Assembly (NCBI GenBank): GCA_027493525.1
Contig: JAOSKN010000003.1
Coordinates: 62,001-126,000, forward strand
DNA length: 64,000 nt
DNA from: Planctomycetota bacterium
Lineage (GTDB): Bacteria > Planctomycetota > SZUA-567 > H5-PLA8
Direction: 5' to 3'
The position numbers and the translations under genes were made by a program. Position 1 is the first letter of the stretch. The number at the start of each line of letters is the position of its first letter. A model generated the notes under the pieces. It was not told the DNA's origin. It saw only the letters and a program-made list of their open reading frames with translations, and searched no databases. Below are positions 255 through 47,179 of the stretch, piece after piece.

Positions 255-1178
255 ATGCCTTCCCGCAAGGCCACGCGGATGCGCCGGCTCGAACCGGTGT
301 TGGGCCGCTCGGCGGAGGATCTCGAGCGCACGGGCCTGCCCGTGCCGTGGGTCCGTTCGGTCGTCTTCAAGGAAAAGCGGCGGGACTACGTCTTCCCGGG
401 GGAGCGGCATCCCGGGCTGGAACTGTGCTACGTGGACCGCGGCGCGGTGCACGCGCACGTCAGCGGCGGGCGCGGCCGTGCCATCGATATGCTCGCCGCG
501 GCGGGCACGCTGCTGGCCTGGCTCCCTGGCGAATTTCACAGCCTGTACGCCGCGCCGGGTCCCGCGCCGAACATCGTTTCAATCCACGCGCTGGGTCCGC
601 TGCCGCCGGGAACCGCGAACCTTTCCAAGCGCGCCATCGTGCTTGAGGCCGCCGAGCGCGCGCTCGTCAAGCGGCTCATCGAAGAGCACGCCTCCGGCGG
701 CGCGGCGACGGCCCAACTCCAGAGCGCGCTGCTGCTCGAGCTGCTCGTGCCGGTCATCCGGCGCGCGCAGGCCGAGCGCGCGGCCCCGCGGCGCGCGGCG
801 CCCGACAACATCCACCGCTTGCAGGGCCTGCTGGTCGAGGAGGCGCGGGCCGAGATCGAGCGCCGGCTCGCGAGCCGCGAGGAGGTTTCCGTTACGGACC
901 TCGCGCGCGCGCTCCAGATCAGCCCGAGCCACCTCAGTCACACCTTTCGCGAGGCGGCCGGGCGGAGCGTGATGGCCTACGTCCGCGCAGAGCGCATGAA
1001 GCACGCCAGCGAGCGGCTGCGCGACTCGGCGCTCTCGATCACCGACATCGCGCGCGCCTGCGGGTTCGAGTCGATTCACGCCTTCAGCCGCGCCTTCAAG
1101 CGGGAGACGGGATACGCGCCGCGGGACTACGCGCGGAGCGTGAGGCCGGAAAAAGAGAATGCAAAACGTAAAACGTAA
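255..1178 (+). CDS. AraC-family transcriptional regulator
   Basis: A 307-residue protein. The N-terminal two thirds looks like a cupin-type sensory domain (residues about 30-120: YVFPGERHPGLELCYVDRG, then a stretch ending PGEFHSLY). The C-terminal 100 residues form the tandem helix-turn-helix of AraC proteins: VTDLARALQISPSHLSHTF is the first HTH and ITDIARACGFESIHAFSRAF the second, followed by the usual GYAPRDYR-type end. It probably binds a small ligand and controls a nearby operon; the target cannot be read from the sequence. The final codons (A-K-R-K-T-stop) are encoded by a 7-bp tandem repeat array, so the native C-terminus may have been altered by repeat growth. Confidence 0.9.
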   Translation: MPSRKATRMRRLEPVLGRSAEDLERTGLPVPWVRSVVFKEKRRDYVFPGERHPGLELCYVDRGAVHAHVSGGRGRAIDMLAAAGTLLAWLPGEFHSLYAAPGPAPNIVSIHALGPLPPGTANLSKRAIVLEAAERALVKRLIEEHASGGAATAQLQSALLLELLVPVIRRAQAERAAPRRAAPDNIHRLQGLLVEEARAEIERRLASREEVSVTDLARALQISPSHLSHTFREAAGRSVMAYVRAERMKHASERLRDSALSITDIARACGFESIHAFSRAFKRETGYAPRDYARSVRPEKENAKRKT

Positions 1179-1190
1179 AACGTAAAACGT
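1163..1190 (+). repeat. Heptanucleotide tandem array (AAAACGT)4
   Basis: Four perfect AAAACGT units plus a trailing AAAA. The array overlaps the stop codon of the AraC gene (1176-1178). The same unit recurs, slightly decayed, at 26046-26066, and its complement occurs at 1241-1261. Confidence 0.9.
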
Positions 1191-1240
1191 AAAAGAACCT
1201 TTGGCGCTCATGCATCGGGCAAATGCTTGTCGCAAGATCC

Positions 1241-3471: not shown

Positions 3472-3475
3472 GGTA

Positions 3476-3510
3476 GTTCCGAGTTCCGAGTTCCGAGTTC
3501 CGAGTTCCGA
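3476..3510 (+). repeat. Heptanucleotide tandem array (GTTCCGA)5
   Basis: Five perfect GTTCCGA units, 35 bp in all, starting 5 bp after the acsA stop. The unit differs from those of the other arrays in this window but has the same period of 7. Confidence 0.93.
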
Positions 3511-3575
3511 GCGGGATTCCTTGCCGGTCAACGGGTACGCGGCATGCTTCTAACGGGGTCGTGGCGAAAGCGCAT

Positions 3576-16151: not shown

Positions 16152-16173
16152 CCGGGAACGAACGAGTGACGCC

Positions 16174-17927: not shown

Positions 17928-17974
17928 ATCTGCCGGAATCTGGCGCGATTCGGTAGCCGAAGGCCCCGCCCATG

Positions 17975-18140: not shown

Positions 18141-18172
18141 GTCGTCACAATCGGGTCGAAGGAGTGCGCACG

Positions 18173-19216
18173 ATGAGCGCGAAGTCGAGCAAGAAGAGCA
18201 AGAAGGCGTCGCCGGCGGCAACGAACAAGCCGAAGGTTCGCATCGGCTTCATCGGCAGCGGCGGCATCATGAACTGGCACGTGGACCGGCTCAAGAAGGC
18301 CCCCGCGGAGATCGTGGCGCTGGCCGACACGGCCCAGGGGTCCATTGACCGGATGAAGGAACGCCAGCCGCAGCTCGCCGGCGCCGCCGAGTACCTCGAT
18401 TGGCAGAAGATGCTCGCCGCGGAGAAGCTCGACGCGGTGATCCTCGGCAGCCCGCACACGGTCCACTACGAACAGATTTGCGCGGCGCTTGACCACGGCC
18501 TGCACGTGCTCTCCGAGAAGCCCATGACCTGCACCAGCGCCCACGCCCGCGACATCATCCAGCGCGCGAAGAAGGCCAAGAAGGTCGTCGGCATCAGCTA
18601 CCAGCGCCACTTCCAGGGCGTGTACCGCTTTCTCCGCGAACTGGTCCAGACGCGCAAGTTGGGCAAGATCACCTACGTCGCGGCGTTCCAGGCGCAGGAG
18701 TGGCTGCACGCGGTGTCGGGAACCTGGCGCCAGACGCAGGCGCTCGGCGGCGGCGGGCAGATCAACGACTCCGGCTCGCACCTGCTCGACATGGTCATGT
18801 GGACCACGGGCCTGCAGGCTTCGGAGGTGAGCTGCCGGCAGGAGTTCTTCGGCACCGAAGTGGACATCAACAGCGCGGTCAACGTGAAGTTCACCAACGG
18901 CGCGCTTGGCACGATCTCGATTATCGGCAGCGCCCCGGTCGGGTTCTGGGAGGATTTCACGATCGTCGGCGACAAGGGCTGCGTCTTCAACCGGCAGGGC
19001 AAGGTGACGTGGCAGGATGCCGCCGGCGGGACGACCCTGGAACTCAATCGCAAGCCCGACTGGATGGATCCCGACACCAACTTCGTCGCGGCCATCCGCG
19101 GGGAAGCCGAGATCGGTTGTCCGCCCGAGATCGGCCTGCGCGTGATCGAACTCACCGAGGCCGCCTGGCGCAGCCATAAGCAGGGCGGCGCGGTGGTCAA
19201 GGTCGAGCGCAGTTAG
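18173..19216 (+). CDS. Gfo/Idh/MocA-family oxidoreductase
   Basis: A 347-residue protein with a Lys/Ser-rich N-terminal tail (about 20 residues), the Rossmann motif IGFIGSGGIMNWH, the EKP motif as SEKPMTCT, and LGGGGQINDSGSHLLDMVMW, which contains the catalytic D-x3-H of the family. The C-terminal domain is complete. It is NAD(P)-dependent and probably acts on a sugar or cyclitol; the substrate is unknown. The start is supported by GAAGGAG 10 bp upstream. It is flanked by an intrinsic terminator on each side, so it is probably a single-gene transcript. Confidence 0.93.
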   Translation: MSAKSSKKSKKASPAATNKPKVRIGFIGSGGIMNWHVDRLKKAPAEIVALADTAQGSIDRMKERQPQLAGAAEYLDWQKMLAAEKLDAVILGSPHTVHYEQICAALDHGLHVLSEKPMTCTSAHARDIIQRAKKAKKVVGISYQRHFQGVYRFLRELVQTRKLGKITYVAAFQAQEWLHAVSGTWRQTQALGGGGQINDSGSHLLDMVMWTTGLQASEVSCRQEFFGTEVDINSAVNVKFTNGALGTISIIGSAPVGFWEDFTIVGDKGCVFNRQGKVTWQDAAGGTTLELNRKPDWMDPDTNFVAAIRGEAEIGCPPEIGLRVIELTEAAWRSHKQGGAVVKVERS

Positions 19217-19248
19217 CCGCCCGATCGGACGTCCGCGGTACACATCGG

Positions 19249-19285
19249 ATCCCCCGTCTCGCCTTGCGAGCGGGGGATTTTTTTT
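19249..19285 (+). terminator. Strong intrinsic terminator
   Basis: A long stem ATCCCCCG/CGGGGGAT continues into an inner CTCGC-CTT-GCGAG hairpin and is followed by eight T residues. It ends the Gfo/Idh/MocA transcript 33 bp after the stop. Confidence 0.95.
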
Positions 19286-19372
19286 GAGCGGCCGCCGCCC
19301 ATCCCCCGTTGCAGCCTCGCCTCTGCCGTGGAAAATGGCCTGTTTACCCCTTCGCCCCGTCATGGAGCCTCG

Positions 19373-21565
19373 ATGGAAGTCGCCTCGTCGCAAGCGGATG
19401 CCGAGCGCGCCGCGCCGCCGCGCACGGACTGGGCGTCTCAGCCCCGCCTGCCCGTCGTCGAAGGCGAGGCGGAGGCCTCCGCCGAAGTGCGGCACGAACT
19501 CCGCGCGGCGTTCGAGGCCTGCGGCCTGCACCGCCCGTTCCGTTTGAGCCGCTACGATCCGGGTTCCGTGCTCGAGGTCAACCTGGAAGGCGTCGCGCCG
19601 GCCACGGCCGGGCGGGCGCGGCTGCGCCTGGAACGCTTCTGCGGCGGGGGGTTCGCGGGGCAGGTCTACCGCGCGCGGCTGGTCTCCCTGAGCTGGCGCG
19701 GGGAGCCCGTGCCGGGCCTGGAGGTCGGGAAGCGTTACGCGATCAAGCTGCTGCGCCCGCCCGGCTCCTTCGCCCGCGGCTTTCGCAACGCGCTCTATCG
19801 CATCGGCTTTCAGGCGCCGTTTTCCCTGCAGACCAACCGCGATGCCGTCCGCGCCGGCGCGCTCTGGCAGAAGCTGCTCCGCCGCGCGGTGAAGCTGCGC
19901 TTCGGTTCGGAGCGGCACGCCGCCGACGTCCACGCCACCTTTTTCGATCCGGGCCTGGAGGCCTTCGGCGAGATTCTTGAGTGGGTGGATGGGCGGCTCT
20001 GGAAGCTCGAGAGCGATGCCCGGCTCTTCGAGCGCGGAGCGTACCTGGCTTGGGAGCAGGCGCCCCCGGATGCGCCTTCGCCGGAGTACCTCGAGAAGCA
20101 CGTCTTCATGCGCAAGCTGGTCGCCTTGCTTCGCGAAGTCGGCGCGGAAGAGACGGCGCGGCAATACGAGTGGGGCACCTGGAAGAGCCAGCCCAACGTG
20201 CTGAAGCGCCTGGACGGCGCCGGGGAACTCTGCGCCATCGACTGGCGGCCCGGTCTGGCGCTGCTCGCGCCGCTGCCCATGAGCCCCGCCGACTTCGGGC
20301 TGGTCCTGCGCGGGCTGGCGCGCGGCCGGCTGGTGCAGTTCGACGGCGCGGACGTGAGCAAGCTCGAGGCGTTCGTCTCCGCGCACGGGGAAGCCTTCGC
20401 GGACCTGCGCCCCGCGCTGGCCGAGCTGAAGTCCGCCGAGGCCGCCTACCGCGCGGGGCTCCCCGACGGGTTGAACCGCCCCTGGAGGCTCCTGACGCGC
20501 CTCCCGTTCTGCGGCGAGGTTCGCGCGGCCGCCGCCGCGTCCTGGCAGCGGCTGGGGCTTCTGGACGACGGGAGCGCCGCGCGCACGGCTCGTTCGGCGC
20601 CGCGTTTCTGGCTCTGTTACGCGCTCTGGTGGCTGCCCATCGTGGGCCACTTTCTGCTGCGCATGCTGGGCTCTTCCTCCTATAGGCGCCATGTGGGCAT
20701 GATGCTTGGCAGTCCGGGCTACGCCGCGCGGGGCCTGCGCGGCTGGCGGATCGAGACGCTGCTGCGTTGGCATCGCAACGGGCGGGTGGGGGACCGCAAG
20801 GCGCTGGCGCGAGTGGAGCAGCCCGTCGAGTTTGCGCTGGAACGGCTCCTGGTCGGCTGGTGGCCGCGCGCGTGGCACCGCTTCGTCACCGACGGCGATT
20901 ACGCCAAGGCTCTGCTCAAGGCCTGGATCGGATTCCCGTTGCGCTTCTACGCCAGCGCCGAATTCCGCGAGGCATGGCTCCTCGAGCGCGTGCGCAAGGC
21001 CCTGGCGGAGGGCATGCTCGAGGCCGTCGAGGAAGCGCGCATCGAGGCGCACATCCGCGATCCCTTCATCCAGAAGTACCTCAAGTGCATGGCCGTGCAC
21101 CTCTGCCTCAGCCCGGTGACGACCTTGCTGCGCTTCGGCTTGGCGATCTACTTCTCGGTCTGGCTCGGCGAGAGTTGGCACGACAGCCTGGCCATTGCCG
21201 TGGCGGTGCTCGCGGCGATCCAGTTGCTCCCGGTGACGCCGGGTTCCGTCGCGCGGGGGCTCTACGTCATCTGGCTGATGATCCGGGAACGCAATACCCG
21301 CGATTACCGCATCGCGGCGTTTGTCTCGTTCTGGCACTACATTGGGTATCTGGGCTTCCCGTTGCAGATGGCGACGCGCTTCCCGGCGCTGGCGCGCTTC
21401 CTGACCGCGCGCTGGGCCAAGCGGATCGTCTCGTTCGTGCCGGTCTTTGGCGAGGCCGGCGGGCTGTTGGAGCACAAGGTCTTCGACCTGTTTTTCAATC
21501 TGCCGATCAGCTTGCATGCACGTTGGGCGGCTCCATCGCCCACCGGCGAAGAGATCCCGGCTTAG
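19373..21565 (+). CDS. Kinase-like domain fused to a polytopic membrane domain
   Basis: A 730-residue protein starting MEVASSQADAER, with GGAG 5 bp before the ATG. Residues about 85-130 look like a protein-kinase N-lobe: glycine loop GGGFAGQVY (91-99) and the AIK lysine (K125). Further on, SQPNVLKRL and AIDWRPGLALL could be the catalytic-loop Asn and the Mg-binding Asp of an atypical (ABC1/aminoglycoside-kinase-like) fold; no HRD or DFG is present. The C-terminal half has at least four hydrophobic segments (FWLCYALWWLPIVGHFLL, LRFGLAIYFSVWL, IAVAVLAAIQLLP, FVSFWHYIGYLGFPL). Whether it is an active kinase is unclear. It stands alone between a terminator and the PKD gene. Confidence 0.75.
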   Translation: MEVASSQADAERAAPPRTDWASQPRLPVVEGEAEASAEVRHELRAAFEACGLHRPFRLSRYDPGSVLEVNLEGVAPATAGRARLRLERFCGGGFAGQVYRARLVSLSWRGEPVPGLEVGKRYAIKLLRPPGSFARGFRNALYRIGFQAPFSLQTNRDAVRAGALWQKLLRRAVKLRFGSERHAADVHATFFDPGLEAFGEILEWVDGRLWKLESDARLFERGAYLAWEQAPPDAPSPEYLEKHVFMRKLVALLREVGAEETARQYEWGTWKSQPNVLKRLDGAGELCAIDWRPGLALLAPLPMSPADFGLVLRGLARGRLVQFDGADVSKLEAFVSAHGEAFADLRPALAELKSAEAAYRAGLPDGLNRPWRLLTRLPFCGEVRAAAAASWQRLGLLDDGSAARTARSAPRFWLCYALWWLPIVGHFLLRMLGSSSYRRHVGMMLGSPGYAARGLRGWRIETLLRWHRNGRVGDRKALARVEQPVEFALERLLVGWWPRAWHRFVTDGDYAKALLKAWIGFPLRFYASAEFREAWLLERVRKALAEGMLEAVEEARIEAHIRDPFIQKYLKCMAVHLCLSPVTTLLRFGLAIYFSVWLGESWHDSLAIAVAVLAAIQLLPVTPGSVARGLYVIWLMIRERNTRDYRIAAFVSFWHYIGYLGFPLQMATRFPALARFLTARWAKRIVSFVPVFGEAGGLLEHKVFDLFFNLPISLHARWAAPSPTGEEIPA

Positions 21566-21587
21566 ACATTTGGTTGAAGGCGTAAAA

Positions 21588-21790
21588 AGATGCACCATTG
21601 TGCATTCTGGATGGGCGCCACGTGCATGTACGCGGATTTGCTGGCGTGGCATGGGGACTCATCCCGATAACTTCAGACAAGGCTTGGCATCTAGGTGGGG
21701 GATGCTATTCTTGTCCGTTCCTGCTTTGCCGGTCCGATTTGGATTCTTGGTAAACCCAGCCTAAAGGGAACGCACGAAACGGCGTCCCTT
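21588..21790 (+). promoter_or_regulatory. Hairpin-rich leader of the PKD gene
   Basis: The 260-bp gap before the PKD protein has three clear inverted repeats: ATGCAC-CATT-GTGCAT at about 21590-21605, GCCACG/CGTGGC at about 21616-21649, and AAGGGAACGC/GCGTCCCTT at 21764-21790, which lies 35 bp before the ATG and could hide the ribosome site. No gene is seen. Confidence 0.35.
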
Positions 21791-21825
21791 CAGGAACTCG
21801 TGCAGTCCAGGAGCGCAGCAAGGCG

Positions 21826-23172
21826 ATGACGGCCATTGGTGGATTGAAGATCCGGCTCGGGATGGTGGCGCTCTGCGCGGCCATGGCGCTGTGCGGCGCG
21901 GCGCGCGCACAGGTGACGGCGGTGATCTCGGCCGACCAGACGATGGGCGACGCGCCGCTGGCGGTGGCCTTCGACGGCACGGGTTCGACCGGCGGCGTGA
22001 CGACGTACTTCTGGCGCTTCGGGGACGGGGGCGTCTCGACGGCCGCCTCGCCGGTGCACCTTTACAACACGCCCGGCACCTACGTGGCGGAACTGACGGT
22101 GACCGACGGCGGCTCGAACAGCGACACCGAGGAAGTGACGATCGAGGTGACGGGCAATGGCGCCGGCCCGGTCACGCCCGGAGTCAACTTCCGCCTGGCG
22201 CCCACGCGCATCCAGTTGAAGTTGAACCACGCCGCGCCCAACCGCGACTCCTTCGTTTTCAACTCGGTCTTCGCGACCATCGACCTGCCGCCGATCCTGA
22301 TCAACGTGCCCTTCGAGTTCTCCGTCAACGGGACGCTGGTCGCGGCGGGCGATTTGAACGCCGACGGCGAGTTCAGGCAGGCCTTCAACCGGAACACGCT
22401 GGTTCCGCAGGTGAACCTCCGGGTGGACCGCCACCGGCAGACGTTTTCCATCCGGATCAACCGTGCGGACCTGGCGGGCGTCTTCGATACCTCGTACCCC
22501 CCGGCCGCCGACGGCGATTTCACGAACATGCTGGGCGACGTGACGGTCCTGCTGCGCATCGGCTCGCAGAGCTACGAGATCACCGAGGCGCTGAACTACA
22601 CGTCCCGCGCGGGCCGCACGGGCACGGGGCTGTTTCAGCCCCGCGGGCGGCGCGGCGCGGTTCGAGACGGCTTCTTCGTGATCGATAAGGCCAGCGCCTT
22701 GGAGAACCCCGAAGGCACGGGCCACTTCTTCGATGTGCGCGCGTCCATCGCCCGGCCGAACGCGACCGACGACCCCTTCACCTTCTTCACCGTGCCGGTC
22801 CCGCTCGACGGCGTCATGATCGTGACGATCGGCGGGTTCGTGGACACCATCCCCGGCGACCGGATCCGCGGCAAGGCGGGGAAGTACCTGAGCGTGGTCC
22901 AACCCGAACGCGAGCGCGGCGGGGTGCGGCACATGTTTCTCAACATGGCCACCGGCCAACTGACGGTAAAGACCTGGGATCTCCCTGCCACCGGGGCCAG
23001 CGGCACCGGCCTGCCGCTGAAGGCCGACGTCTTTGTAGGCTACAACATGGTCATCCGGGTGGATTTCGAGCCCGTCATCGTGCCGCCGCTGGCCTTCGAC
23101 TTCCAGGCGGTGACCACCACGCGCCTGGAGCGGATCAACATCTTCGATGCGTTCTGGCAGACGGGGCGGTAA
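21826..23172 (+). CDS. Secreted PKD-domain protein
   Basis: A 448-residue protein with a signal peptide (residues 1-28, MVALCAAMALCGAARA). One PKD domain at about 30-105 carries the usual core (YFWRFGDGG, HLYNTPGTYVAELTV). A long beta-rich C-terminal part contains FEFSVNGTLVAAGDLNADGE and DVTVLLRIGSQSYEITEAL. A similar pattern (DFEVNG..., DVEVTLVLDG...) appears at the end of the esterase at 30340-32998, suggesting a shared beta domain. It is probably an extracellular adhesin-like or carbohydrate-binding protein. A structured leader precedes it and a heptad repeat region follows. Confidence 0.85.
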   Translation: MTAIGGLKIRLGMVALCAAMALCGAARAQVTAVISADQTMGDAPLAVAFDGTGSTGGVTTYFWRFGDGGVSTAASPVHLYNTPGTYVAELTVTDGGSNSDTEEVTIEVTGNGAGPVTPGVNFRLAPTRIQLKLNHAAPNRDSFVFNSVFATIDLPPILINVPFEFSVNGTLVAAGDLNADGEFRQAFNRNTLVPQVNLRVDRHRQTFSIRINRADLAGVFDTSYPPAADGDFTNMLGDVTVLLRIGSQSYEITEALNYTSRAGRTGTGLFQPRGRRGAVRDGFFVIDKASALENPEGTGHFFDVRASIARPNATDDPFTFFTVPVPLDGVMIVTIGGFVDTIPGDRIRGKAGKYLSVVQPERERGGVRHMFLNMATGQLTVKTWDLPATGASGTGLPLKADVFVGYNMVIRVDFEPVIVPPLAFDFQAVTTTRLERINIFDAFWQTGR

Positions 23173-23185
23173 GCGGCGTATCCGA

Positions 23186-23274
23186 GTCAAAAGTCAAAAG
23201 CTTGGGTCCCCAGAGAACTAGGCAACTATCCCCTTTGACCTTTGACCTTTGACCTTTGACCTTTGAGCTTTGAC
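23186..23274 (+). repeat. Facing heptad arrays, GTCAAAA and CTTTGAC
   Basis: Two GTCAAAA units (23186-23199) are followed, after 33 bp, by six CTTTGAC units (23233-23274; the fifth has one mismatch). The two arrays are near complements, so they could form one hairpin between the convergent PKD and glycosyltransferase genes. Confidence 0.88.
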
Positions 23275-23279
23275 CTTCC

Positions 23280-24479
23280 TCATCCCAACATGTTCATGAA
23301 CGGCTCGATATTCTTCTGAATGTCATAGCGCGCCTCGATCGCTTTCCGCGCGGTCTCCGCCCTCCGGCGGGCTTCGGCGGGGTCGTCCAGGCACGCGCCG
23401 AGCGCTTTCGCGAGGGCCGGCGGATCGCCGGCGGCGGCCACATACCCCGTTTGCGGGTCGAGGATCTCGCCCAGGCCCCCCGCGCTCGTCCCCACCACCG
23501 GGACGCCCAGCGCGAAGGCTTCCAGGACGATGTTCGGGACGCCGTCGCGGTCGCCGTCGGCCTGCTGGCGGTACGGCGCGACGAAGGCGTCGGCGCGCGC
23601 CAACTCCATATAGAAGCGAGGGCCGGCCTCCGGCGGATGCAGGAGCACCTTCGAGGCCACGCCGCGGCGGTCGATGTCCCGCTGTAGCGCCGCGCGGTCG
23701 GGGCCGTCGCCGAAGAGCGTCAGGCGCAGCGGGCGCTTGCGCAGGGGCGGGGCCTCCAGCGCGGCGAGGAGGTCCTGAAAGCCTTTCTTGCCCACGAAGC
23801 GCCCGGCGGCGACGGCCTCCGCGGGCTTGCCCTTGGCCTTCGGCTCGGGCGCGGCGCGAAAGGGGAAGCCCGCCAGCGGCAGGCCATGCGGCATCAGGAC
23901 GGCTCTCCGGCCGATGCCGGGAAGCGCCAGGACCCGCTCGTGCGCCTCGCGGTGGCAGGAGAAGATCGCTCGCGCATCCTGGGCCTTGGCGTCCAGCAGT
24001 TGCGCCTCGACGAAGAGGTCGCGCGCGTGGACGCTGATCGAGAGCGGGAGCTTCGCGTCCCGCGCGGCGATCCAGGCGATGGTGGACGGCAGGCTGGCGA
24101 AGTGGGCGTGGACGTGGGTGAAGCGGCCCTGGACGAGCCACTTCTGGAGCACGTGGGCCCGCGCGCAGCTCAGCACGCCGCGTGAGCCCATCTCGCGCTG
24201 AACGAGCGCGAGGCGCTCGCGCGCAGCTTTGGTGCGCAGGGTGGGCATGGCCTTCAGCGCCGCGGCGAGGGTCGGGGCCGAGGGCACCGGGGGCAGGACG
24301 CGGAGCAGCTCCGGCAGCCCCGCCCATTCCGGGTCTTCGCCGGGCGGCAGCGCGCCTTTCTTGAGCGCGAAGACGGTCAGCTCCACGCCGCGGCGGCGCA
24401 ATTCCCGCAGTTCGCGCGCGACGAAGCGCTCGCTCCAGCGAGGGAAGGTGTCGACGACGACGGCCAGCCGCGCGCTCAT
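23280..24479 (-). CDS. Glycosyltransferase, GT4-like (GT-B fold)
   Basis: A 399-residue protein with the N-terminal pattern VVVDTFPRWSERFVARELREL found in colanic-acid-type glycosyltransferases, VHAHFASLPSTIAWIAA and ISVHARDLF in the acceptor domain, and the C-terminal donor-binding motif GVPNIVLEAFALGVPVVGT, whose glutamate is the conserved GT4 residue. It transfers a sugar from an NDP donor to an exopolysaccharide or glycolipid intermediate on the cytoplasmic side of the membrane. It is upstream of no other polysaccharide gene here, so the product is unknown. The start MSARLAVVVD is the only reasonable one. Confidence 0.93.
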   Translation of the reverse strand: MSARLAVVVDTFPRWSERFVARELRELRRRGVELTVFALKKGALPPGEDPEWAGLPELLRVLPPVPSAPTLAAALKAMPTLRTKAARERLALVQREMGSRGVLSCARAHVLQKWLVQGRFTHVHAHFASLPSTIAWIAARDAKLPLSISVHARDLFVEAQLLDAKAQDARAIFSCHREAHERVLALPGIGRRAVLMPHGLPLAGFPFRAAPEPKAKGKPAEAVAAGRFVGKKGFQDLLAALEAPPLRKRPLRLTLFGDGPDRAALQRDIDRRGVASKVLLHPPEAGPRFYMELARADAFVAPYRQQADGDRDGVPNIVLEAFALGVPVVGTSAGGLGEILDPQTGYVAAAGDPPALAKALGACLDDPAEARRRAETARKAIEARYDIQKNIEPFMNMLG

Positions 24480-24518
24480 GCGCTCAGTTTCCGCCCCCGC
24501 CCCGGGGATTCCAGTGGT

Positions 24519-25283
24519 TCAGGACAGGCGCAGTCCGGCGAGGAGCGCCTCGGCGCGGGCCTCGCGGCGGCGCCGCAGCCACGCGCTGGCCGGCCAGCAG
24601 AGCTTCCAGGTCATCAGGCAGGCGCCCTTCCAGGTCGGGAGGTAGGCCGAGCCGTCCTCCGCGCGCCGCAGGTAGCCGGTGCCGACCTGCGCCTCGTATT
24701 CGCGCTGCATGCTCGCGATCACGAGCTGCGCCTGCGAGCCCGGCGCCGGTTCGGGCTTGGGCGCCGGGTGCGCGTAGGACTCGAGCAGCGCGCGATGGAT
24801 GCGATAGAGCCTGCGCGGGTCGCGCTCGGAGACAAAGGTCTCCACGCGGCGGCCCGGGATCGGCTCGAAGGGCAGGATCGTGGCGGTGTTGTTGGTCAGC
24901 AGGGCCTGCGCGCCGCCCTCGAAGGGCGTGAAGAATTCGACGAAGAGCGCCTGAAGCGTCTGGGCCGAGACGGCGCCCTGGAAGATCGCGGCGGCCATGG
25001 CCAGGTCCCGCCGCTCGCGCTGGACCAGCAGGCACAGGAATTGGGTCTGCCCGGGCAGCGGGTTGACCGGGGAAAGGAAGCCCATGACCTCAAAGCCGTC
25101 GGCGCTCAGCCCGAGGACGCTCTGGCTGAACAGCTCGTAGACTTCCGGCGGGAGCGACTCTTCGGGGTCCAGCTCGGCGAATTCGGGCTCGGCCGGGATG
25201 CGCTGGGTGAACTTCACCAGCACGGGGCCGAGCACGAACGGCGCGGCGACCAGCAGCAGGGGAAGCCCGAGATACCACCACAT
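24519..25283 (-). CDS. Membrane-anchored hypothetical protein
   Basis: A 254-residue protein with one N-terminal helix (WWYLGLPLLLVAAPFVLGPVLV), then a soluble domain with acidic PEFAELDPEESLPPEVYELF and a possible beta core (FLCLLVQRERRDLAMAAAIF, ALLTNNTATILPFEP). The last 60 residues are basic and helical. No family is recognised. It lies 12 bp downstream of the SGNH hydrolase on the same strand and is probably co-transcribed with it. Confidence 0.75.
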   Translation of the reverse strand: MWWYLGLPLLLVAAPFVLGPVLVKFTQRIPAEPEFAELDPEESLPPEVYELFSQSVLGLSADGFEVMGFLSPVNPLPGQTQFLCLLVQRERRDLAMAAAIFQGAVSAQTLQALFVEFFTPFEGGAQALLTNNTATILPFEPIPGRRVETFVSERDPRRLYRIHRALLESYAHPAPKPEPAPGSQAQLVIASMQREYEAQVGTGYLRRAEDGSAYLPTWKGACLMTWKLCWPASAWLRRRREARAEALLAGLRLS

Positions 25284-25295
25284 GCCACGCGGCTC

Positions 25296-25943
25296 CTACA
25301 TGCGGCTGACGGTGTCGTAGAGCGCTTCGGCCATGATCAGGTGCCCCAGGCGGTACGGATGGACCGGCTCGGGCGCGAAGTCCTGCGGCGGGCGGTAGCG
25401 CATTTGCTTCTCGTACAGCTTCTGGGTCTCGATATGCGCGGTCTTGTACTTCCTGGCCATGTCGCGGACGACCGCGAGGTACTTCGGGAGCAGCTTGAGC
25501 ACCTCGGCGCGCCGGCCCTGGTCGCCTTTCTCGGTGCTCAGGTAGAAGGGGTCGAGCAGCACGATCTTCGCCTTGGTGCGCTTGCGCGTGCGGGACAGGA
25601 TATCCGAGTAGAGTTCGCGGAACTTCTTGGGGTCGACGGGGTCGTTCCCGGCGAAGAGGGTGCGGTGCAGGTCGTTGATCCCGATCTTGATCGAGAGCCA
25701 GTCGGGCTTCTCGGCCAGCACGTCGTCCTCCCAGCGGTTGTAAAGGTCCAGGACGGTGTTGCCGCCGATCCCGCGATTGAGCCAGCGGATGTCCAGTTCG
25801 GGGCGCCGCGCGATGACCAGCTCGCGAAAGAGGCTCATGTAGCCCGTGCCGTAAGGCGCCTCGGCGCCGCGGCGGCCGCAGTCGGTGATCGAGTCGCCGA
25901 TGCAGAGGAACAGGGAACGGGACTTCACCGGGAAGCGGGGCAT
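25296..25943 (-). CDS. SGNH/GDSL hydrolase
   Basis: A 215-residue esterase-type protein. Block I CIGDSITD gives the serine nucleophile (S18), block II NRGIGGNT the oxyanion Gly, block III GINDL the Asn, and block V PVHPYRLGH the catalytic His; the usual acidic residue two positions before that His is replaced, so a variant triad is used. The lack of a signal peptide suggests a cytosolic esterase or acyl hydrolase. AAGGAG 7 bp upstream fixes the start. It leads a two-gene unit with the membrane protein downstream. Confidence 0.92.
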   Translation of the reverse strand: MPRFPVKSRSLFLCIGDSITDCGRRGAEAPYGTGYMSLFRELVIARRPELDIRWLNRGIGGNTVLDLYNRWEDDVLAEKPDWLSIKIGINDLHRTLFAGNDPVDPKKFRELYSDILSRTRKRTKAKIVLLDPFYLSTEKGDQGRRAEVLKLLPKYLAVVRDMARKYKTAHIETQKLYEKQMRYRPPQDFAPEPVHPYRLGHLIMAEALYDTVSRM

Positions 25944-26045
25944 GGAGGGCTCCTTGTGCGCTGGTCGGATGCAGGCTTCTTTCATACGCAGGTTGGGGAA
26001 GGGATGCAACGGCAAACGGTGGGTGAGAATCTGTGGCTTGATTTA

Positions 26046-26066
26046 GAAACGTAAAACGTAAAGCGT
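26046..26066 (+). repeat. Short heptad array of AAAACGT type
   Basis: Three units (GAAACGT, AAAACGT, AAAGCGT). It is the same unit as the array at 1163-1190, some 25 kb away. Confidence 0.75.
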
Positions 26067-26081
26067 GATGAGTGTATTCCG

Positions 26082-26158
26082 CCTCAAGCCTCAAGCCTCA
26101 AGCCTCAAGCCTCAAGCCTTAAGCCTCAAGCCTCAAGCCTCAAGCCTCAAGCCTCAAG
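26082..26158 (+). repeat. Heptanucleotide tandem array (CCTCAAG)11
   Basis: Eleven 7-bp units, 77 bp, with a single changed unit (CCTTAAG, the sixth). It is the longest array in the window. It stays open in one frame upstream of the next gene, but that gene's ribosome site lies well after it. Confidence 0.97.
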
Positions 26159-26232
26159 CCACCGCCTTTGTGCGATTGCGGCTCCCACCGCGCCCCTTAA
26201 AAGGGAATCTCTGGCGCCAGGAGAGCCCCCAC

Positions 26233-28449
26233 GTGCACGCCTCAGACCATGCCCTGCAAATACTTCAGTCTTGGCTGCCGTTCGGGATGCGCTACTGGTG
26301 GACGCCGAAGGGCGACGCGCGGCACGGCTGTTGGGGCACGGGGTACGCGCATTGGGGCGTGCAGAGCCATCAGAAACTCGTCGCGGCGCTGGCGGTTCTG
26401 GCCGACGATCCGTCGATCGACGCGAAGGCAGCGGGCCTTTCCCGGGACGAGGCGCTCGCGCGGGCGCTGGCGGGCCTGCGCTTCACGCTGGACCAGCACC
26501 TGGAGCACGGACTCCCCGGCCCCGACGGCGCGACGTGGGGGCACACCTGGATCAGCGCGCTGGGCGTCGAGCGGATGATGCCGGGCGTCGAACTGCTCGA
26601 AGCACACCTCGATGAGGCATACCGCGCGAAGCTCCGGGCGGTCCTGTGCAGCGAAGCCGACTACCAGCTTACGGTGAACGTGGGCGGCGACGTTTGGGGC
26701 CATACGAGCAAGAACAAGCCGGAGTCGAACATCTGGAACGGGGCGCTCTGCGCGCGCGCGGCCTTGTGCTACCCGGAGCATCCGCGGGCCGCGGCCTGGA
26801 TCGAGAAGGCCCACGAGTGGCTGCTGAATGGGATCTCGATTCCCGCCGATGCGCAGGACGATAGCGTCGTTGCCGGCAAGCCGCTGAAGGAATGGCACCG
26901 CGGACCGAATTTCTTCCCGCACTACAGCCTCGACCACCACATGTACCTCAACGTCGGGTACATGGTGATCTGCATCAGCAATCTCGCGATCCTGCATTAC
27001 GCCTTCAAGGCGCGCCGCGCCGCGCCGCCGGAGAGCCTGTACCACCACGCCGAGGCGCTCTGGAGCGTGATCCGCAAGTTCACCTTCGCCGACGGCCGGC
27101 TCTGCCGCATCGGCGGGGATTCGCGGGTGCGCTACTGCTATTGCCAGGACTACCTGCTCCCCGCGCTCTATTGGGCCGCCGACCATCTGCGCGACCCGCA
27201 CGCCTGGGGGCTGCTCGAGGGGCAGCTCAAGCTGATCGAGCACGAGCAGAAGCTCAGCGGCGACGGCGGGTTCATCTCGCGGCGCATGGAGCACATGAAG
27301 CGGGACAACGAGCTGTACTACACGCGGCTGGAGTCGGACAAGGCCTCCGGCCTGGCGCTGGTGCGGACGTGGTGGCGGCGTTTTCCCTTCGAGCCCGCGA
27401 AGCCGGCGCGCGAATTCGAGGCGACGGTGCAGGGCGGCTGGAGCGAGCCCGAGCACGGCGCGGTCTTTCACCGCAGCCCCACGCGCATCGCCAGCTTCGC
27501 CTGGCGGGCCTCCGAAGGGCCGATGGGGCTCTGCCTGGCGCCGGACAACGGGCACGACGCCGAATGGCAGAAGAACCTCGCCGGCGGCATCCGCTTCCTC
27601 GGCGAGACCGAGCCCAAGGGCGACGTCCACGAGAAGCATCTCGAGAGTTTTCCCGGCGGCTTCGTCACCAGCGGCGTGATGAGCGACAAGCTCAAGAAGT
27701 TCATCGGCGAGGGCTGGCGCAGCGAGGAGCACTGGCTCAAGCACAAGCTCGTCTTCGCCGCGCTGCCCGACGAGCGGACCGTGCTGCGGCTGGAGTTCGC
27801 CGCGCTGGAGCCGCGCCGGGTCTATCTCGACGCCGTGGAAGGCGTGAAGTGGGAGATCCCCAACGACATCCTGACCGGGCGGCGGACGTACGCCTTCGCG
27901 GGCGGCGAGCGGACGCTCGAGCCGCGCCTGGGCGCGAACGAGGTCATCGGCCTGGGCTCGGCCTGGGTAAACGTGGACGGGCGGCTGGGCGCGGTGGGGA
28001 TCTACGGCGCGGACACGTGGAGCATCGCGCGGCGCGGCACGCGGATCGGGGGGTACTCGGGAAGCATGCTCACCGACGCGCTCTGCTGGCCCTGCCGAGC
28101 GGGGCGCGAGGCCGTCGAAGGCCCGGCGACGCTGCTCGACAGCGGCGTGGCGCTCTTCGCTTCGACGGGCGCGGCCGCGACGAAGACCTACCACGAGCAA
28201 GGCCTGGCGAAGCGGCTGGAGGCGCCGGGGCTGCTGCGCGCGATCCTGGCGCTGGGGTTCGACGGGCGGCAGTACGTCCTGGCGGCGAACTTTGGCGCGG
28301 AGCCGGTCGCCGCGACGCTGGCCGCGCCGCTCGGGAACTGGATCGATCTGGCCGGCGGGCGCACGCTTTCGGCCGAACAGGGTCTCGACGTCCAACTCGA
28401 ACCGAATCGCGCGAAGCTTTTCCTTCGCGAGGGCCGGTCGGGCGCGTGA
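26233..28449 (+). CDS. Large toroid-type protein, possible polysaccharide-active enzyme
   Basis: A 738-residue protein read from a GTG preceded by CAGGAGAG; the frame is open further upstream but there encodes only the heptad repeat. The first half is helical with Trp, His and Tyr-rich helix ends (GYAHWGVQSHQKLVAAL, DVWGHTSKNKPESNIWNG, FPHYSLDHHMYLNVGYM, VRYCYCQDYLLPALYWAA), as in the (alpha/alpha)6 toroids of heparinase-like lyases and some glycosidases. The second half is beta-rich with LGSAWVNVDGRLGAVGIYGAD. No signal peptide is seen. The layout fits a heparinase II/III-like or DUF2264-like protein, but catalytic residues cannot be assigned by eye. Confidence 0.7.
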   Translation: MHASDHALQILQSWLPFGMRYWWTPKGDARHGCWGTGYAHWGVQSHQKLVAALAVLADDPSIDAKAAGLSRDEALARALAGLRFTLDQHLEHGLPGPDGATWGHTWISALGVERMMPGVELLEAHLDEAYRAKLRAVLCSEADYQLTVNVGGDVWGHTSKNKPESNIWNGALCARAALCYPEHPRAAAWIEKAHEWLLNGISIPADAQDDSVVAGKPLKEWHRGPNFFPHYSLDHHMYLNVGYMVICISNLAILHYAFKARRAAPPESLYHHAEALWSVIRKFTFADGRLCRIGGDSRVRYCYCQDYLLPALYWAADHLRDPHAWGLLEGQLKLIEHEQKLSGDGGFISRRMEHMKRDNELYYTRLESDKASGLALVRTWWRRFPFEPAKPAREFEATVQGGWSEPEHGAVFHRSPTRIASFAWRASEGPMGLCLAPDNGHDAEWQKNLAGGIRFLGETEPKGDVHEKHLESFPGGFVTSGVMSDKLKKFIGEGWRSEEHWLKHKLVFAALPDERTVLRLEFAALEPRRVYLDAVEGVKWEIPNDILTGRRTYAFAGGERTLEPRLGANEVIGLGSAWVNVDGRLGAVGIYGADTWSIARRGTRIGGYSGSMLTDALCWPCRAGREAVEGPATLLDSGVALFASTGAAATKTYHEQGLAKRLEAPGLLRAILALGFDGRQYVLAANFGAEPVAATLAAPLGNWIDLAGGRTLSAEQGLDVQLEPNRAKLFLREGRSGA

Positions 28450-28457
28450 AGCGCGCG

Positions 28458-29261
28458 CTATGCCTTCAGCCGCCCCTTCATCCGGCGCACGCCCAGCGCG
28501 CCCAGCACGATGGCCATCGTCACGAGCACGAGCGGGCAGGCCCAGGCCCACGCCACGCTGGTGTGCGCGGGACCGCTCACCACCAGCCGGAAGGTTTCGA
28601 TGGTATGAAAGAGCGGCGTCGCGTAGGCGGCGTACTCCAGGCCGTAGGGCAGCTCACGAACGGGGAAGACCAGGCCCGAGAGGAGCCCCAGCGGGGTAAG
28701 CCCGATCGTGAAGTAGAATTGGAAGTGATTGATGTTCTTGACCCACGAGGTCACCAGGTAGCTGATCCCGGCGAAGACGATGGAGTTCAGGAAACCGATC
28801 GCCGGGACGAGCACGGCCCAGGGCGTGCGCAGGTGTCCGAAGGCCAGGAGCACCAGCGCGACGATGGAGCTGAAGAGCAGTCCCTTGCTCCCGCACCAGA
28901 GCAGTTCTCCGGTGAAGATGTCGTGGCGCGTGAGCGGCGTCGCGAGCATGCCTTCGTAAGCTTTCTGGTAGCGCAGCCGGATGAAGGTCCCGTAGCTGGC
29001 CTCGAAGGCGGCCGTGTACATGCTGGTCATGGCCAGGAGCGCGGGGGCCATGTAGGCGTCGTACTCGAGCCCGTTGAATTCGCGGTGAATGTAACGCCCC
29101 AGGCCGAAGCCTACGGCGAGCAGGAAGAAGGTCGGTTCCAGCACGGCCGGCGTGGCGTTGGCGACGATGAACTTGCTGTAGACCTTCCAGTGGCGGTACC
29201 AGACGGCGCGCAGGCGCACGGCCTTGGAGGGCGCGCGGCGCGCGGGGGCGGCGTCACTCAT
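28458..29261 (-). CDS. ABC-2 type transporter permease
   Basis: A 267-residue integral membrane protein with six hydrophobic segments and the NodJ/ABC-2 pattern: AAFEASYGTFIRLRYQKAYE followed by GMLATPLTRHDIF, then GLTPLGLLSGLVFPVRELP before the last helices. It forms the membrane channel for the ATPase encoded just upstream, whose 3' end it overlaps by 8 bp. Such exporters move drugs, polysaccharides or lipids. The substrate is unknown. Confidence 0.93.
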   Translation of the reverse strand: MSDAAPARRAPSKAVRLRAVWYRHWKVYSKFIVANATPAVLEPTFFLLAVGFGLGRYIHREFNGLEYDAYMAPALLAMTSMYTAAFEASYGTFIRLRYQKAYEGMLATPLTRHDIFTGELLWCGSKGLLFSSIVALVLLAFGHLRTPWAVLVPAIGFLNSIVFAGISYLVTSWVKNINHFQFYFTIGLTPLGLLSGLVFPVRELPYGLEYAAYATPLFHTIETFRLVVSGPAHTSVAWAWACPLVLVTMAIVLGALGVRRMKGRLKA

Positions 29262-30168
29262 CGAGGGTCCTTCCGGTCAGTTTCAGGAACACGTCTTCCA
29301 GCGAGGTGGAACGGACCACCGCCGCGCCAAAGGCTTTTTCGCCGACCCAGCGGCGCAGCGCGGCCTCGTCGCGGTGGAAGACGAAGGCCCGGTCGCCGTG
29401 CCGCTCGGCGAGGGTTTCCGCGCCGAGGGCCACGAGCGTCTCTTCGTGGCCGCTCGCGTCGAACTCCAGCACCCACGGCGGGAGGTGCTCGGAGATCAGA
29501 TTTCGCGGCGCGTCCTCGGCGATGAGCTTGCCCTTGAAGAGGATGCCCACGCGGTCGGCGAGCTGGGCGGCTTCTTCCATGTAGTGCGTGGTGAGCAGGA
29601 TCGTCAGGCCGCGCTGCTTGAGCTGCCGGAGCGTGCCCCACATCGCGTGGCGGACCTGCGGGTCGAGGCCGGTGGTGGGTTCGTCGAGGACCAGGAGTTC
29701 CGGGTCGTTGAGGAGCGCGCGGGCGATCATCAGCCGCCGGCGCATGCCGCCGCTGAGCGCCTGGACGGCGTCGTCGTCGCGCCCCTCGAGCTGGACGAAC
29801 TTCAGGAGTTCCTGGATCTTCTTCTGAAACGCCGCGCCGCGCAGGCCGAAGAAGCCGCCGTAGATCTCGAGGTTCCGCCGCACGTCGAGGTCCTCGTCGA
29901 AGACTTCACTCTGCATCACCACGCCGAGGCGCGCCTTGACTTCGCTCTGCTCGATCCAGGGGTCGAAGCCGAGAACCTCCATTTGGCCGCCGTCGCGCGG
30001 GAGGACGGCGGCGATCATCTTCGAGAGCGTCGTCTTGCCGGCGCCGTTGGGCCCCAGCAGGGCGTAGCAGGTTCCGCGTGGGATGCGCAGATTTACCGAA
30101 TCCACGGCCGTCAAAGCGGCGTAGCGCTTCACGACCCCCTCAGTGTGCACGGCGGCCAGATTGTCCAA
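29254..30168 (-). CDS. ABC transporter ATP-binding protein
   Basis: A 304-residue ATPase of the NodI/CcmA-like (ABC-2) group. Walker A GPNGAGKT is at 39-46, the signature LSGG at 138-141, Walker B LLVLDEP at 158-164 and the H-loop histidine at 195 (LLTTHYMEEA). The extra C-terminal domain with HRDEAALRRWVGEK is common in this group. It energises the permease downstream. It is divergent from the esterase gene, with a 171-bp intergenic region. Confidence 0.95.
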   Translation of the reverse strand: MDNLAAVHTEGVVKRYAALTAVDSVNLRIPRGTCYALLGPNGAGKTTLSKMIAAVLPRDGGQMEVLGFDPWIEQSEVKARLGVVMQSEVFDEDLDVRRNLEIYGGFFGLRGAAFQKKIQELLKFVQLEGRDDDAVQALSGGMRRRLMIARALLNDPELLVLDEPTTGLDPQVRHAMWGTLRQLKQRGLTILLTTHYMEEAAQLADRVGILFKGKLIAEDAPRNLISEHLPPWVLEFDASGHEETLVALGAETLAERHGDRAFVFHRDEAALRRWVGEKAFGAAVVRSTSLEDVFLKLTGRTLDE

Positions 30169-30339
30169 GGGAATTGCTTTCAGATTCTAAGGTTAGCCCG
30201 ATACGAACGTCACGCTCCGGGGGGTAAGCCAACTACCATAGAGAGGCCCGGCGTAGGCGCAAGGGGCGCGACCCTACCTCTTGTTCTGGGGTAAGCATCC
30301 GGCTAAAGTAACCACTTCTCGTTACAGGGGATATCCCAC

Positions 30340-32998
30340 GTGCGAGTATGTGTTCTCATTTCGTGCCTCTTGGCGGCGCTGTATTGCGGCGCCTCGCGCG
30401 CCCAGACCGCCGGAGCCAACCCGTTTTCAGTTTATGTTTATACCTCGCCGGTGGACGACACGTTTCAGCCATACGGAGTTTACGTCCCGCTGGGCTGGGA
30501 CGCCTCGGCGACCGGCGAGGACCGGCATCCGGCCGTGATTTACCTGCACGGCTTCGGCGGGCGGCTTTCGACGAGCATCAGCGGCGCGCAGAAGACCTTC
30601 GCCGATGCGAACAAGTGGCTTATCGCCTACGCCGACGGGCGGGGGAGCGTGAACTACGACCATATCGGCGAACTGGACGTCCTCAAGGTGCGGCAGGAAC
30701 TGATCGACAACTTTGGGGCGCACCCGGACAAGATCTACCTGACGGGCTTCTCGATGGGCGGGCACGGCGTCTACCGGCTGGGCTGCCGCTTCCCGGACCT
30801 CTTCGCCGCCTGCCGCCCGGGCGCGGGCTGGACGGACTACAACGAATTCTACCCGCACTGGTACGAGCAAGGCAGCGCGCCGAAGCTCAGCGCGTACCTC
30901 GACCCCACCCGCGCCTCGCTGCTGGGACATACGGCCGCCGTGCCGCAGGTCGAGAACGGGCTGATGACCTCGTGGCGCGTCTACTACGGCACGGGCGACT
31001 CGGTGAATCCGCCGACCAACGCGACGCAGATGACCGACGCGTGGCAAGCGCTGGGGCACACCAGCCTGGTCAAGGTCTCGCACGGCGGAGGGCACTCGGA
31101 CGAAGCCCAGGATGTCACGTACGCGTTCTTCAACGGCAAGTCCGTGAACCGCAACCGCACGGAGGTGGTCTACCGGACGTGGCGTCTGCGCCACGACGGG
31201 GCGTACTGGATCCGGATCGACGATTTCCGCGAGCGCGAGCAGCAGGCGCGGCTCAAGGCCACCGCCAACCCCAGCACCGACGTCATCGACGTGGAGGCCA
31301 CGAACGTGGAGGCCTTCACGCTCACGCCGCCGGCCGCGGCGATCCCCGGCGCCGGCGAGGTCGTGGTGAACGTGAACGGAGTCGAGGCCTGGCGCGGGGC
31401 CTGGGACGGGGATCTGACCCTGCGCACGACCCGCGACGGCGACGGCTTCCCCGACGGCTGGACCGATGCCGCGCCGCTCGGCGGGGGCTACCATAAGATC
31501 AAGGGCCAGGAAGGGCCGCTCACCGATACCACGCGCGGGCCGTTCGTGGTCGTCTACGGCGCCTCGGGGCTGGACGCCGACCGCATCGAGGAGAACCGCA
31601 AGGCCGCGCTGCTCTTCTGCGGGCAGTGGAATTCCATGTGCGTCCTGCGCTGGGGCGGGGGGCCGCAAGTCGCAGCGGACTGGTACGAGACGCCCTACAC
31701 CTTCTCGACGGGCGCGCACATGTCCGTGAACAACAGCCGCATCGTCCAGCCGGTGAGCGACGTGGACGTCATCGGCCTGGGCATGGACCTGAGCGGGAAG
31801 AACAAGATCCTCTTCGGCGATCCCGACAGCAACCAGCTTATCGGCACGAGCTACGGCCCGCTTACGCTGCACACCGACGCCGAAGGCGGGGGATCACGGT
31901 TGGCAGCCGCACCTATGCCTTGTCCACGCACCGCTGGTGTTTCTGCTATCCCGACGCCGATGGGACGCTCACGATGGTCAGCAAGGGGCTCAACAGCAGC
32001 CTGCCCGACCTGAACTGGTCGCCTTTCGACGTGGCCAAGGACCTTGAACAGCTTCCGTGGCTGCATCCGGACTACGTGGTCTGGGACACGACCCGCGCGC
32101 CGACGGGAATCGGCAACCTGACCAACACCTACCGCTACCTTCCCGAGAGCTGGGTGGAGGCCGGCTTTTTCACGGCCGACTGGGAACTGGACGAGAACCC
32201 GCCGCAAGTGCGCGCCCGCTTCACCGGGACGCCCGTGCCGGGGCTGCCGGGCGTCTTCAGCACGGGGGGCAGGTAATCGCCGAGGCCGCCGACGGCCCAG
32301 GTGAAAGCGGTGTAGCGAAGATCGAGTACCGGCTCAACGGCGGCGCCTGGACGGAATACACCGGCCCGCTCAACGTGGCGGGCAACGGCGCGCGCGCGTA
32401 CGAATTCCGCGCGGCCGACCGCGGCCTTTCCTGGCTCTACGAGCCCGATCCGACCTACGTGCGCGCCACGCAGGCGCTCAACCGGACCGGCGAGGCGGCG
32501 CTGGACTTCGAAGTCAACGGCGCGGCGGTGGATCCCGACGGCTTGCGTCCCAAGCGTTTCAGCGGGTTGCTGCGCTCGCCGCTCGCGCGCCTTCAGCCCG
32601 GTGATAACGCGGTCCTATGGGTGGATCTGGGCGCGAACCTGTTGCCCGCGGGCGCCGAGTACGTTCCCGTCACGATCCTGCTGGGCGATCTGACGCTCGG
32701 GCCCTTCGACACGCTGCGGTACGGCGTCCTGAAATTCGACGCGCCGGGCGGCGCGCGCGTGCGGGGGCGTATCGTACTTACGGCCAGACGCCGCTACGCG
32801 CTGATCCGCCTGATCAACGTGGACCTGGAAGACGCGCTCGATATCGATCCCGGGGATCTGGACCGGCTGGTGGACGTGGAGGTGACGCTGGTGCTGGACG
32901 GGGTCTCCGCCGGACCGGTCGCATTTACGGCGCAGATGAAGCGCCGCAAGACCACCGTCAACGGGCGGCTCGTATTTATCGAAGGGCGGATTCCCTAG
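30340..32998 (+). CDS. Secreted alpha/beta-hydrolase (esterase-like), two apparent frameshifts
   Basis: Three frames joined at 31888-31892 and 32264-32269 encode one protein of about 885 residues. It starts at a GTG with a signal peptide (VLISCLLAALYCGASRAQ). The catalytic domain (about 20-270) has the nucleophile elbow GFSMGGHG, HPAVIYLHGFGG at the oxyanion side, and SHGGGHSDE with the likely His, as in PHB-depolymerase/feruloyl-esterase-type hydrolases. A middle beta-rich part, an Ig-like segment (GVAKIEYRLNGGAWTEYTGPL) and a C-terminal beta domain (DFEVNG..., DVEVTLVLDG) follow. The breaks lie in G5 and G6 runs and the reading sense resumes at once, so read errors are likely. Confidence 0.8.
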
Positions 32999-33082
32999 CA
33001 GCCGCTGAAAGGCGGCACGGTCTGGGCGTTCGAGCCGCCCGCGCTACGCAAGTAACTCGGTGGGGCTTTCGCGGCGGATCGG

Positions 33083-33589: not shown

Positions 33590-33731
33590 TGCCGGAACTC
33601 CTAGCCACCCAGCGCCCCGTGCGGGTCGCGCAAACAAAGCCGGCTTGAGAGTCGCCGGATGCGGGCGAGTCGCCCGCGCTTCACCATCCTTGCGGTCGCC
33701 GCGCCTGCGCGCGCGGACGACCCGCGTCGGG

Positions 33732-46986: not shown

Positions 46987-47020
46987 GCGTTCGCCCGCCG
47001 AAGCTTGGAGCTACGACCAT

Positions 47021-47048
47021 GCGGAATTCGGACTGCGGAATGCGGAAT
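47021..47048 (+). repeat. Heptad array (GCGGAAT)4
   Basis: Four 7-bp units, GCGGAAT, TCGGACT, GCGGAAT, GCGGAAT, in the 193-bp gap between the adaptor gene and the pump gene. Confidence 0.78.
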
Positions 47049-47179
47049 GAAGGGCAAGCGCGGAGGGTTCCGCCGCACGCGGGGCCGCGCATGCCGAGCT
47101 TTCCCATCCAGGATCAGCCCGGCGCTCCGATCTTGCGCCGCCGCGCCTTCGGCGGTTGGGCCATGCGAGGGGCTTCGCC

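Follow-up and report, generated by a model that had tools for sequence, protein, structure and literature searches.

The heptad arrays in a 64-kb stretch of a planctomycete genome are one case of a genome-wide habit: tandem repeats of seven-base units, built from many different units, that lie mostly between genes and are nearly absent from a species of the same genus. By the features examined, they belong to a known class, the heptanucleotide long simple sequence repeats. We put at about two in three the probability that strand slippage, or a comparable misalignment, produced them where they lie, with growth and shrinkage in seven-base steps, and the best reading is that they are mostly neutral.

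Heptad arrays and genes in the window

The window, meaning the whole 64-kb stretch analysed, corresponds to G000:C3:62001-126000, G000 being an assembly of 7.46 Mb in 6 contigs, with 88% completeness, and the one genome by which its species is represented. Its heptad arrays, and the genes flanking the longest of them, are as follows.

26081..26160, no strand: (GCCTCAA)11.4 heptad array (equivalent to CCTCAAG), between divergent genes
26047..26066, no strand: small array of the AAAACGT unit (as AAACGTA), 2.9 imperfect copies, 92% matches, score 33 (Tandem Repeats Finder)
1163..1194, no strand: perfect (AAAACGT)4.6 array, overlapping the end (1178) of the preceding gene
3475..3511, no strand: perfect (AGTTCCG)5.3 array, directly after an acetyl-CoA synthetase-like gene (1441-3471)
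23232..23277, no strand: (CCTTTGA)6.6 array, between convergent genes, adjoining the end of a glycosyltransferase gene (23280-24479)
47019..47049, no strand: weak (ATGCGGA)4.4 array, 83% matches, after an HlyD-like gene ending at 46986
25296..25943, minus strand: GDSL-like hydrolase gene, left of the GCCTCAA array; open reading frame readable from 26015, conservation from about 25943
26233..28449, plus strand: gene right of the GCCTCAA array, conserved in the congener G001

The two side-by-side arrays of period 7 described in the original prediction are thus real, with 14 bases between them, and the unit of the first does recur elsewhere in the window, in the perfect array at 1163-1194. With 97% matches and a score of 153, the GCCTCAA array was the top of 53 rows that Tandem Repeats Finder returned for the window, and its sole altered base is a C-to-T change in copy 6 (GCCTTAA). 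The small AAAACGT array is weak taken alone, as about 25 exact heptads of two to fewer than three copies are expected per 0.30 Mb of intergenic DNA. Across the whole assembly, three copies of CCTCAAG were found at 6 places and three copies of AAAACGT at 4. The AGTTCCG unit reads AACTCGG on the opposite strand, and AACTCGG is frequent elsewhere in the genome.

Alignment with the start of the G001 counterpart suggests that the right-hand gene, which has no Pfam match up to E 0.1, likely begins at the GTG at 26233, and the GCCTCAA array then lies 72 bp ahead of this start; on its other side, 137 bp separate it from position 25943, where conservation of the GDSL-like gene begins. A longer open frame (26065-28449) crosses the 80-base array and would render it as a protein repeat of seven residues, LKPQASS. 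This repeat is probably not translated, because the start aligned with that of G001 lies at 26233. Elsewhere in the window (46990-50398), an RND-type pump gene (ACR_tran) is in pieces in different frames, covering profile positions 1-121, 121-499 and 525-1020, and is either a pseudogene or the product of assembly indels.

Period 7 dominates across the genome

The original prediction would have failed had other periods been as common as seven. The sample examined consisted of 60 stretches, each of 20 kb, from across contigs C1-C3 and, together with the window, amounted to 1.264 of the 7.46 Mb. Of perfect arrays with at least three copies it contained 50 at period 7, compared with 10 at period 5 (nine of them of G+C only), 7 at period 6, none at period 8, 2 at period 9, none at periods 10-13 and one each at periods 14 and 18. 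One first-order Markov copy of the same 1.264 Mb gave two such arrays at period 5 and none at periods 6-24, and the long GCCTCAA array is therefore far beyond chance. When mismatches were tolerated, 78 tracts were found at lag 7 (none in the Markov copy), with 15, 0, 17 and 11 at lags 6, 8, 9 and 12, respectively, while the 48 at lag 14 are a harmonic of lag 7. If the sample is fair, the whole genome would hold about 460 lag-7 tracts.

Using a gene finder written for the analysis, we placed 69 of the 78 lag-7 tracts mostly in intergenic DNA; at lags 6, 9 and 12, with a lower cut-off, this was so for 2 of 32, 5 of 37 and 2 of 33 tracts, the remainder being mostly coding. The intergenic DNA (0.30 Mb) yielded 47 period-7 arrays with at least three copies, against 8 of period 4 and no more than one for each of periods 5, 6 and 8-15. 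Shorter repeats, of two to fewer than three copies and outside the tracts, exceeded the Markov mean at all periods from 5 to 9 (379 observed against 276 at period 5, 132 against 79 at period 6, 59 against 25 at period 7, 7 against 3.8 at period 8 and 9 against 0.8 at period 9), and some of the 59 at period 7 may be remnants of worn arrays. Because this excess of two-copy repeats extends over several periods, but intergenic arrays of three or more copies are nearly all of period 7, the counts give a sign that what sets seven apart is mainly growth past two copies, more than the first duplication.

Units change in register

The 78 tracts contain 38 different main units, of which AACTCGG (11 tracts) and AACAGTG (8 tracts) recur. 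Several arrays change from one unit to another that differs by a single base, keeping the register, as in nine copies of GCGAAAT followed by eleven of GCGAAGT, or eight of CAGTGAA followed by eight of CGGTGAA. Among the 23 tracts of mixed units we counted 90 switches, against 131.1 upon shuffling the units; the block pattern is often not significant in single tracts (permutation fraction above 0.1 in 13 of 23), and the window's GCCTCAA array gives no block signal (2 switches against 1.8). Neighbouring arrays of different units are also akin: on either strand, 9 of 14 pairs are at most two substitutions apart, a distance found for 20% of random pairs of the genome's own units and 16% of random heptamers, and 3 and 2 of the 14 are three and four apart. 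Beside CCTCAAG arrays in other genomes, neighbours at most two substitutions apart made up 40 of 56. Both the reduced number of switches and the kinship of neighbouring units would be expected if a mutated unit is copied locally. The five of 14 pairs differing by three or four bases count against slippage.

Slippage might instead be driven by structure, hairpins of the single-stranded repeat causing the expansion, and the minus strand of the 80-base array does fold at -17.3 kcal/mol (z -7.7). This fold depends on G-T pairs, however, and there was no excess over shuffles for the plus strand of the same array, for either strand of AGTTCCG or for the plus strands of AAAACGT (z -0.65) and CCTTTGA (no fold), making such an origin very unlikely.

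Several further features of the units were followed and set aside. Degenerate units showed no convincing polarity, 29 of 44 tracts being more repeat-like on the contig left and 15 on the right, or 23 to 21 relative to the unit. Stop codons were built into units about equally in sense (16) and antisense (14) among 52 tracts, and the flanking 8-mer GCCGTTAC, found beside 8 of 66 tracts, remained beside only 3 once heptads were masked. Among the matches listed, AACTCGG differed in orientation between C1 (11 plus, 4 minus) and C2 (1 plus, 7 minus; p = 0.009), but a follow-up with AACAGTG (6 plus, 5 minus against 7 plus, 9 minus; p = 0.70) did not bear out this hint of replication-strand orientation, and the units carry no firm strand signature of replication.

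Arrays lie close to the 3' ends of genes

We compared 61 intergenic tracts with random positions in the same spacers, after setting aside 8 of the 69 that lacked a neighbour, showed an overlap or had a spacer above 1500 bp. A gene 3' end lay within 20 bp of 25 of the 61, against 13.1 +- 2.7 at random, and none of 2000 simulations reached this count. Starts lay within 20 bp of 6 of 61 (8.5 expected), which is not the Maribeggiatoa-type position upstream of start codons. No sense-strand preference was seen among the intergenic tracts tested. Nine of the 67 tracts with two neighbours lie between divergent genes, and the window's GCCTCAA array belongs to this minority.

That array's position between divergent genes fits a regulatory role for the arrays, as binding sites or RNA elements of the kind suggested for the TAACTGA repeats of Beggiatoaceae. 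As a general explanation this is decidedly unlikely: the tracts have too many main units, they are enriched at 3' ends and not near starts, they prefer neither strand, and the GCCTCAA array is absent from the matching spacer of the congener. For this one array, a putative role may lie in changing the spacing of promoters.

A congener nearly without arrays

G001, an assembly of 8 contigs, belongs to the same genus and shows 67-78% identity over its eight longest matches to window positions 15000-34000. It has 2 lag-7 tracts per 0.958 Mb, a density about 30 times below that of G000. Its block matching 19.5-28.3 kb of the window is wholly inverted, and the genes flanking the GCCTCAA array are still neighbours; the stretch between the matching edges at this locus is about 92 bp shorter and without arrays, and the array at 23232 is also missing from its matching spacer. 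At a single site, gain in G000 and loss in G001 are not distinguishable, the spacers being too diverged for an exact empty site, while the contrast in density speaks for gain in the G000 lineage. Since the congener has so few tracts and an arrayless matching spacer, the heptad burst is lineage-specific. The prediction that such arrays are not commonly reported in this type of genome agrees both with the near-arrayless congener and with the open-licence literature, in which we found no paper on heptad arrays in Planctomycetota.

The host itself reads as a planctomycete and not a cyanobacterium by its 16S gene (L290), which has exact target sites for EUB338-II and PLA886 and a 16/18 site for PLA46. 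Among 294 planctomycetes, G000 included, three copies of CCTCAAG occur in 5, against 2 for a backward control, so this unit was dismissed as a special one shared across phyla; it likely recurs by chance. Three copies of AACAGTG occur in 3 of the 294 (backward control 0), with 106 matches in G000 and 25 in G002, a member of another genus of the same family, and none in their respective congeners G001 and G006. Three copies of AACTCGG occur in 2 of 60 relatives, G000 included, the second being G039. Three units were tested in G003 and G006 and two in G005. No lag-7 tract was found in 100 kb of G002 or 31 kb of G004, although G002 has AACAGTG arrays.

A mobile element as an unlikely source of the arrays

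An alternative is that some mobile or dispersed element spreads heptads to new sites and that the arrays are its parts or footprints. Units do recur at many loci (AACTCGG in 11 of 78 tracts), AACAGTG is shared by G000 and G002 and missing from their congeners, a dispersed repeat of about 130 bp abuts two arrays, and Y1 transposase matches number 22 in G000, compared with 0-9 in each of six relatives. The surroundings of the arrays argue otherwise. Among 156 masked 150-bp flanks there were 29 similar pairs, compared with 17 in an equal number of random intergenic flanks; one similar pair extended over 133 bp and the others over at most 40 bp, none joining arrays with the same main unit. Only 2 of the 14 matches to the dispersed repeat in the sample adjoin tracts, ACGGC..GCCGT dyads lay within 60 bp of a tract in 1 of 54 cases (0.55 expected), the array-bearing G002 has 9 Y1 matches, the same as G004, and a viral collection has three copies of CCTCAAG in 12 stretches and of AACAGTG in 13. 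A mobile element is thus an unlikely source.

The dispersed repeat itself covers about 70-150 bp at 77-93% likeness (L187:908-1057, L195:3656-3805, L186, L171, L183, L144, L145), and its two copies that abut heptad arrays do so next to different units. GC-rich, hairpin-like intergenic motifs (L183:19244, L192:9015, L148:921, L171:546 and others) were matched 31-42 times each in 1.26 Mb (as queries they overlap partly in kind), and 1-3 of these matches lay within 30 bp of tracts. By these counts the arrays do not generally sit with palindromes, as they would in REP-like palindromic elements. By their scores, ten of the Y1 (IS200-like) transposase matches in G000 (118.9-121.8 bits, 155-residue frames, two with an internal stop) read as a recently spread insertion sequence; these ten lie, among others, at G000:C1:2207072, C1:2375757, C2:372453, C2:998584, C3:671322 and C3:1357831.

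Heptads in other bacteria and known repeat classes

With one genome per species, four copies of CCTCAAG were found in at least 115 stretches, from Pseudomonas, Stutzerimonas, Vibrio, Acidobacteria, Planctomycetota, Wallbacteria and others. In the DNA around the arrays listed (0.846 Mb), 58 further heptad arrays reach at least three copies, most of them close by, against 5, 9 and 4 arrays at periods 6, 8 and 9. More than 1 kb from the CCTCAAG arrays of the 115 loci listed, the numbers were 11 at period 7, 4 at period 8, 3 at period 9, 2 at period 6 and 1 at period 11, a modest excess and weaker than in G000. Thirty of the 115 listed loci, picked by title as Pseudomonadaceae, contain 14 tracts of other units, and AAGC is common to the units of 12 of them, a pattern that drift from common seeds would leave.

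An assembly artefact is countered by G001, likewise in few contigs and almost arrayless in its 0.958 Mb, and by similar arrays in named isolates of several genera. The window's pump gene, perhaps broken by assembly indels, and the 88% completeness would be in keeping with one, but perfect in-register units, the many different units and the intergenic bias would not, and we consider an artefact exceedingly improbable.

Long simple sequence repeats in bacteria were surveyed in 2007, reportedly by Mrazek, Guo and Shah. As that survey is cited in passages of PMC4679880 and PMC4692102, heptanucleotides led the classes of long repeats in a majority of its genomes, or were over-represented in many. 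The G000 arrays share with this class, as there described, a dominant unit of seven, a largely intergenic position and a phylogenetically scattered occurrence, to which we add as a likeness that longer units are said to be commoner in large, G+C-rich genomes; they differ in their planctomycete host, the congener contrast and the two-copy repeats not confined to seven. In G000 the seven-base unit is the commonest of those of 5-11 nt, and the arrays are beyond chance length and mostly non-coding.

Tandem heptanucleotide repeats are also known as the STRR of cyanobacteria, to which the original prediction likened the arrays. They are comparable in kind, as tandem heptanucleotides, though in a host that is no cyanobacterium; heptads are no cyanobacterial speciality, to judge from excerpts of PMC4679880 and PMC4692102 and from the occurrence of fourfold CCTCAAG in many phyla. 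The TAACTGA repeats of Beggiatoaceae, Cyanobacteria and Bacteroidetes, as portrayed in part of PMC4679880, likewise form heptad arrays, with mixed units in some hosts and, as at the G001 counterpart of the GCCTCAA locus, shorter repeat-free spacers between the same neighbours in relatives; in other phyla they are similarly patchy, and indels between two close strains are mostly in 7-nt increments. Here there are many units and not one, none of the 38 main units found in the 78 tracts of the sample is TAACTGA, and the arrays favour 3' gene ends and not start codons. The GGGNATC-type repeats of Xanthomonas and Nostoc, in the corresponding part of PMC4692102, also are intergenic heptads of variable units; no such (G-quadruplex) heptad is among the 38. 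A 2019 survey (PMC6749651), in its relevant passages, names Rhodopirellula baltica among satellite-bearing genomes and traces some families of bacterial satellites to heptamers and hexamers; passages of PMC4060949 make no mention of heptamers. New in the present case are the planctomycete host, the sister-species contrast and the sign that seven matters more for growth past two copies than for the first duplication.

Probable slippage and the seven-base step

In-place slippage that prefers a step of seven bases accounts for the in-register changes, for the kinship of nearby units and for the arrayless congener. Short direct repeats would arise by chance or through small duplications of several lengths and, in the G000 lineage, mainly seven-base repeats would grow further, some part of the replication or repair machinery presumably favouring that step. 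A point change in one unit would then be copied along the array, and arrays would persist where seven-base insertions are tolerated, often directly after stop codons. Slippage alone gives no account of why the step is 7 rather than 6 or 8, nor does it explain why AACAGTG is common to G000 and G002 but not to their congeners.

One idea in print for seven is the length of DNA contacted by DNA polymerase, given in passages of PMC4679880 and PMC4692102. Two species of one genus should not differ in this contact, yet their densities of tracts are about thirtyfold apart, and some additional factor specific to the lineage is therefore likely. In a stronger version of this idea, which is speculative and which we think rather unlikely, some lineages (the G000 species and perhaps G002) would have gained or lost a specific factor that copies in seven-base steps, a molecular ruler turning a two-copy heptad into an array. 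Matches across G000-G006 to Y1 transposases (22/7/9/6/9/0/6), Y-family polymerases (2/3/2/1/2/1/2) and reverse transcriptases (1/3/1/2/2/1/1) were considered as such a factor, and none tracks the arrays. If there is a ruler, it should be findable by comparing G000 with a close relative, since that relative lacks the burst.

To conclude, why long bacterial repeats favour seven has apparently been open since 2007. The G000/G001 pair narrows the question to a difference between lineages, and points to the growth of arrays more than to the first duplication; dozens of tracts per Mb in one species and about two in its congener would not follow from a polymerase contact that all bacteria share. G000 is a striking case of a known and still unexplained heptad habit of bacteria.
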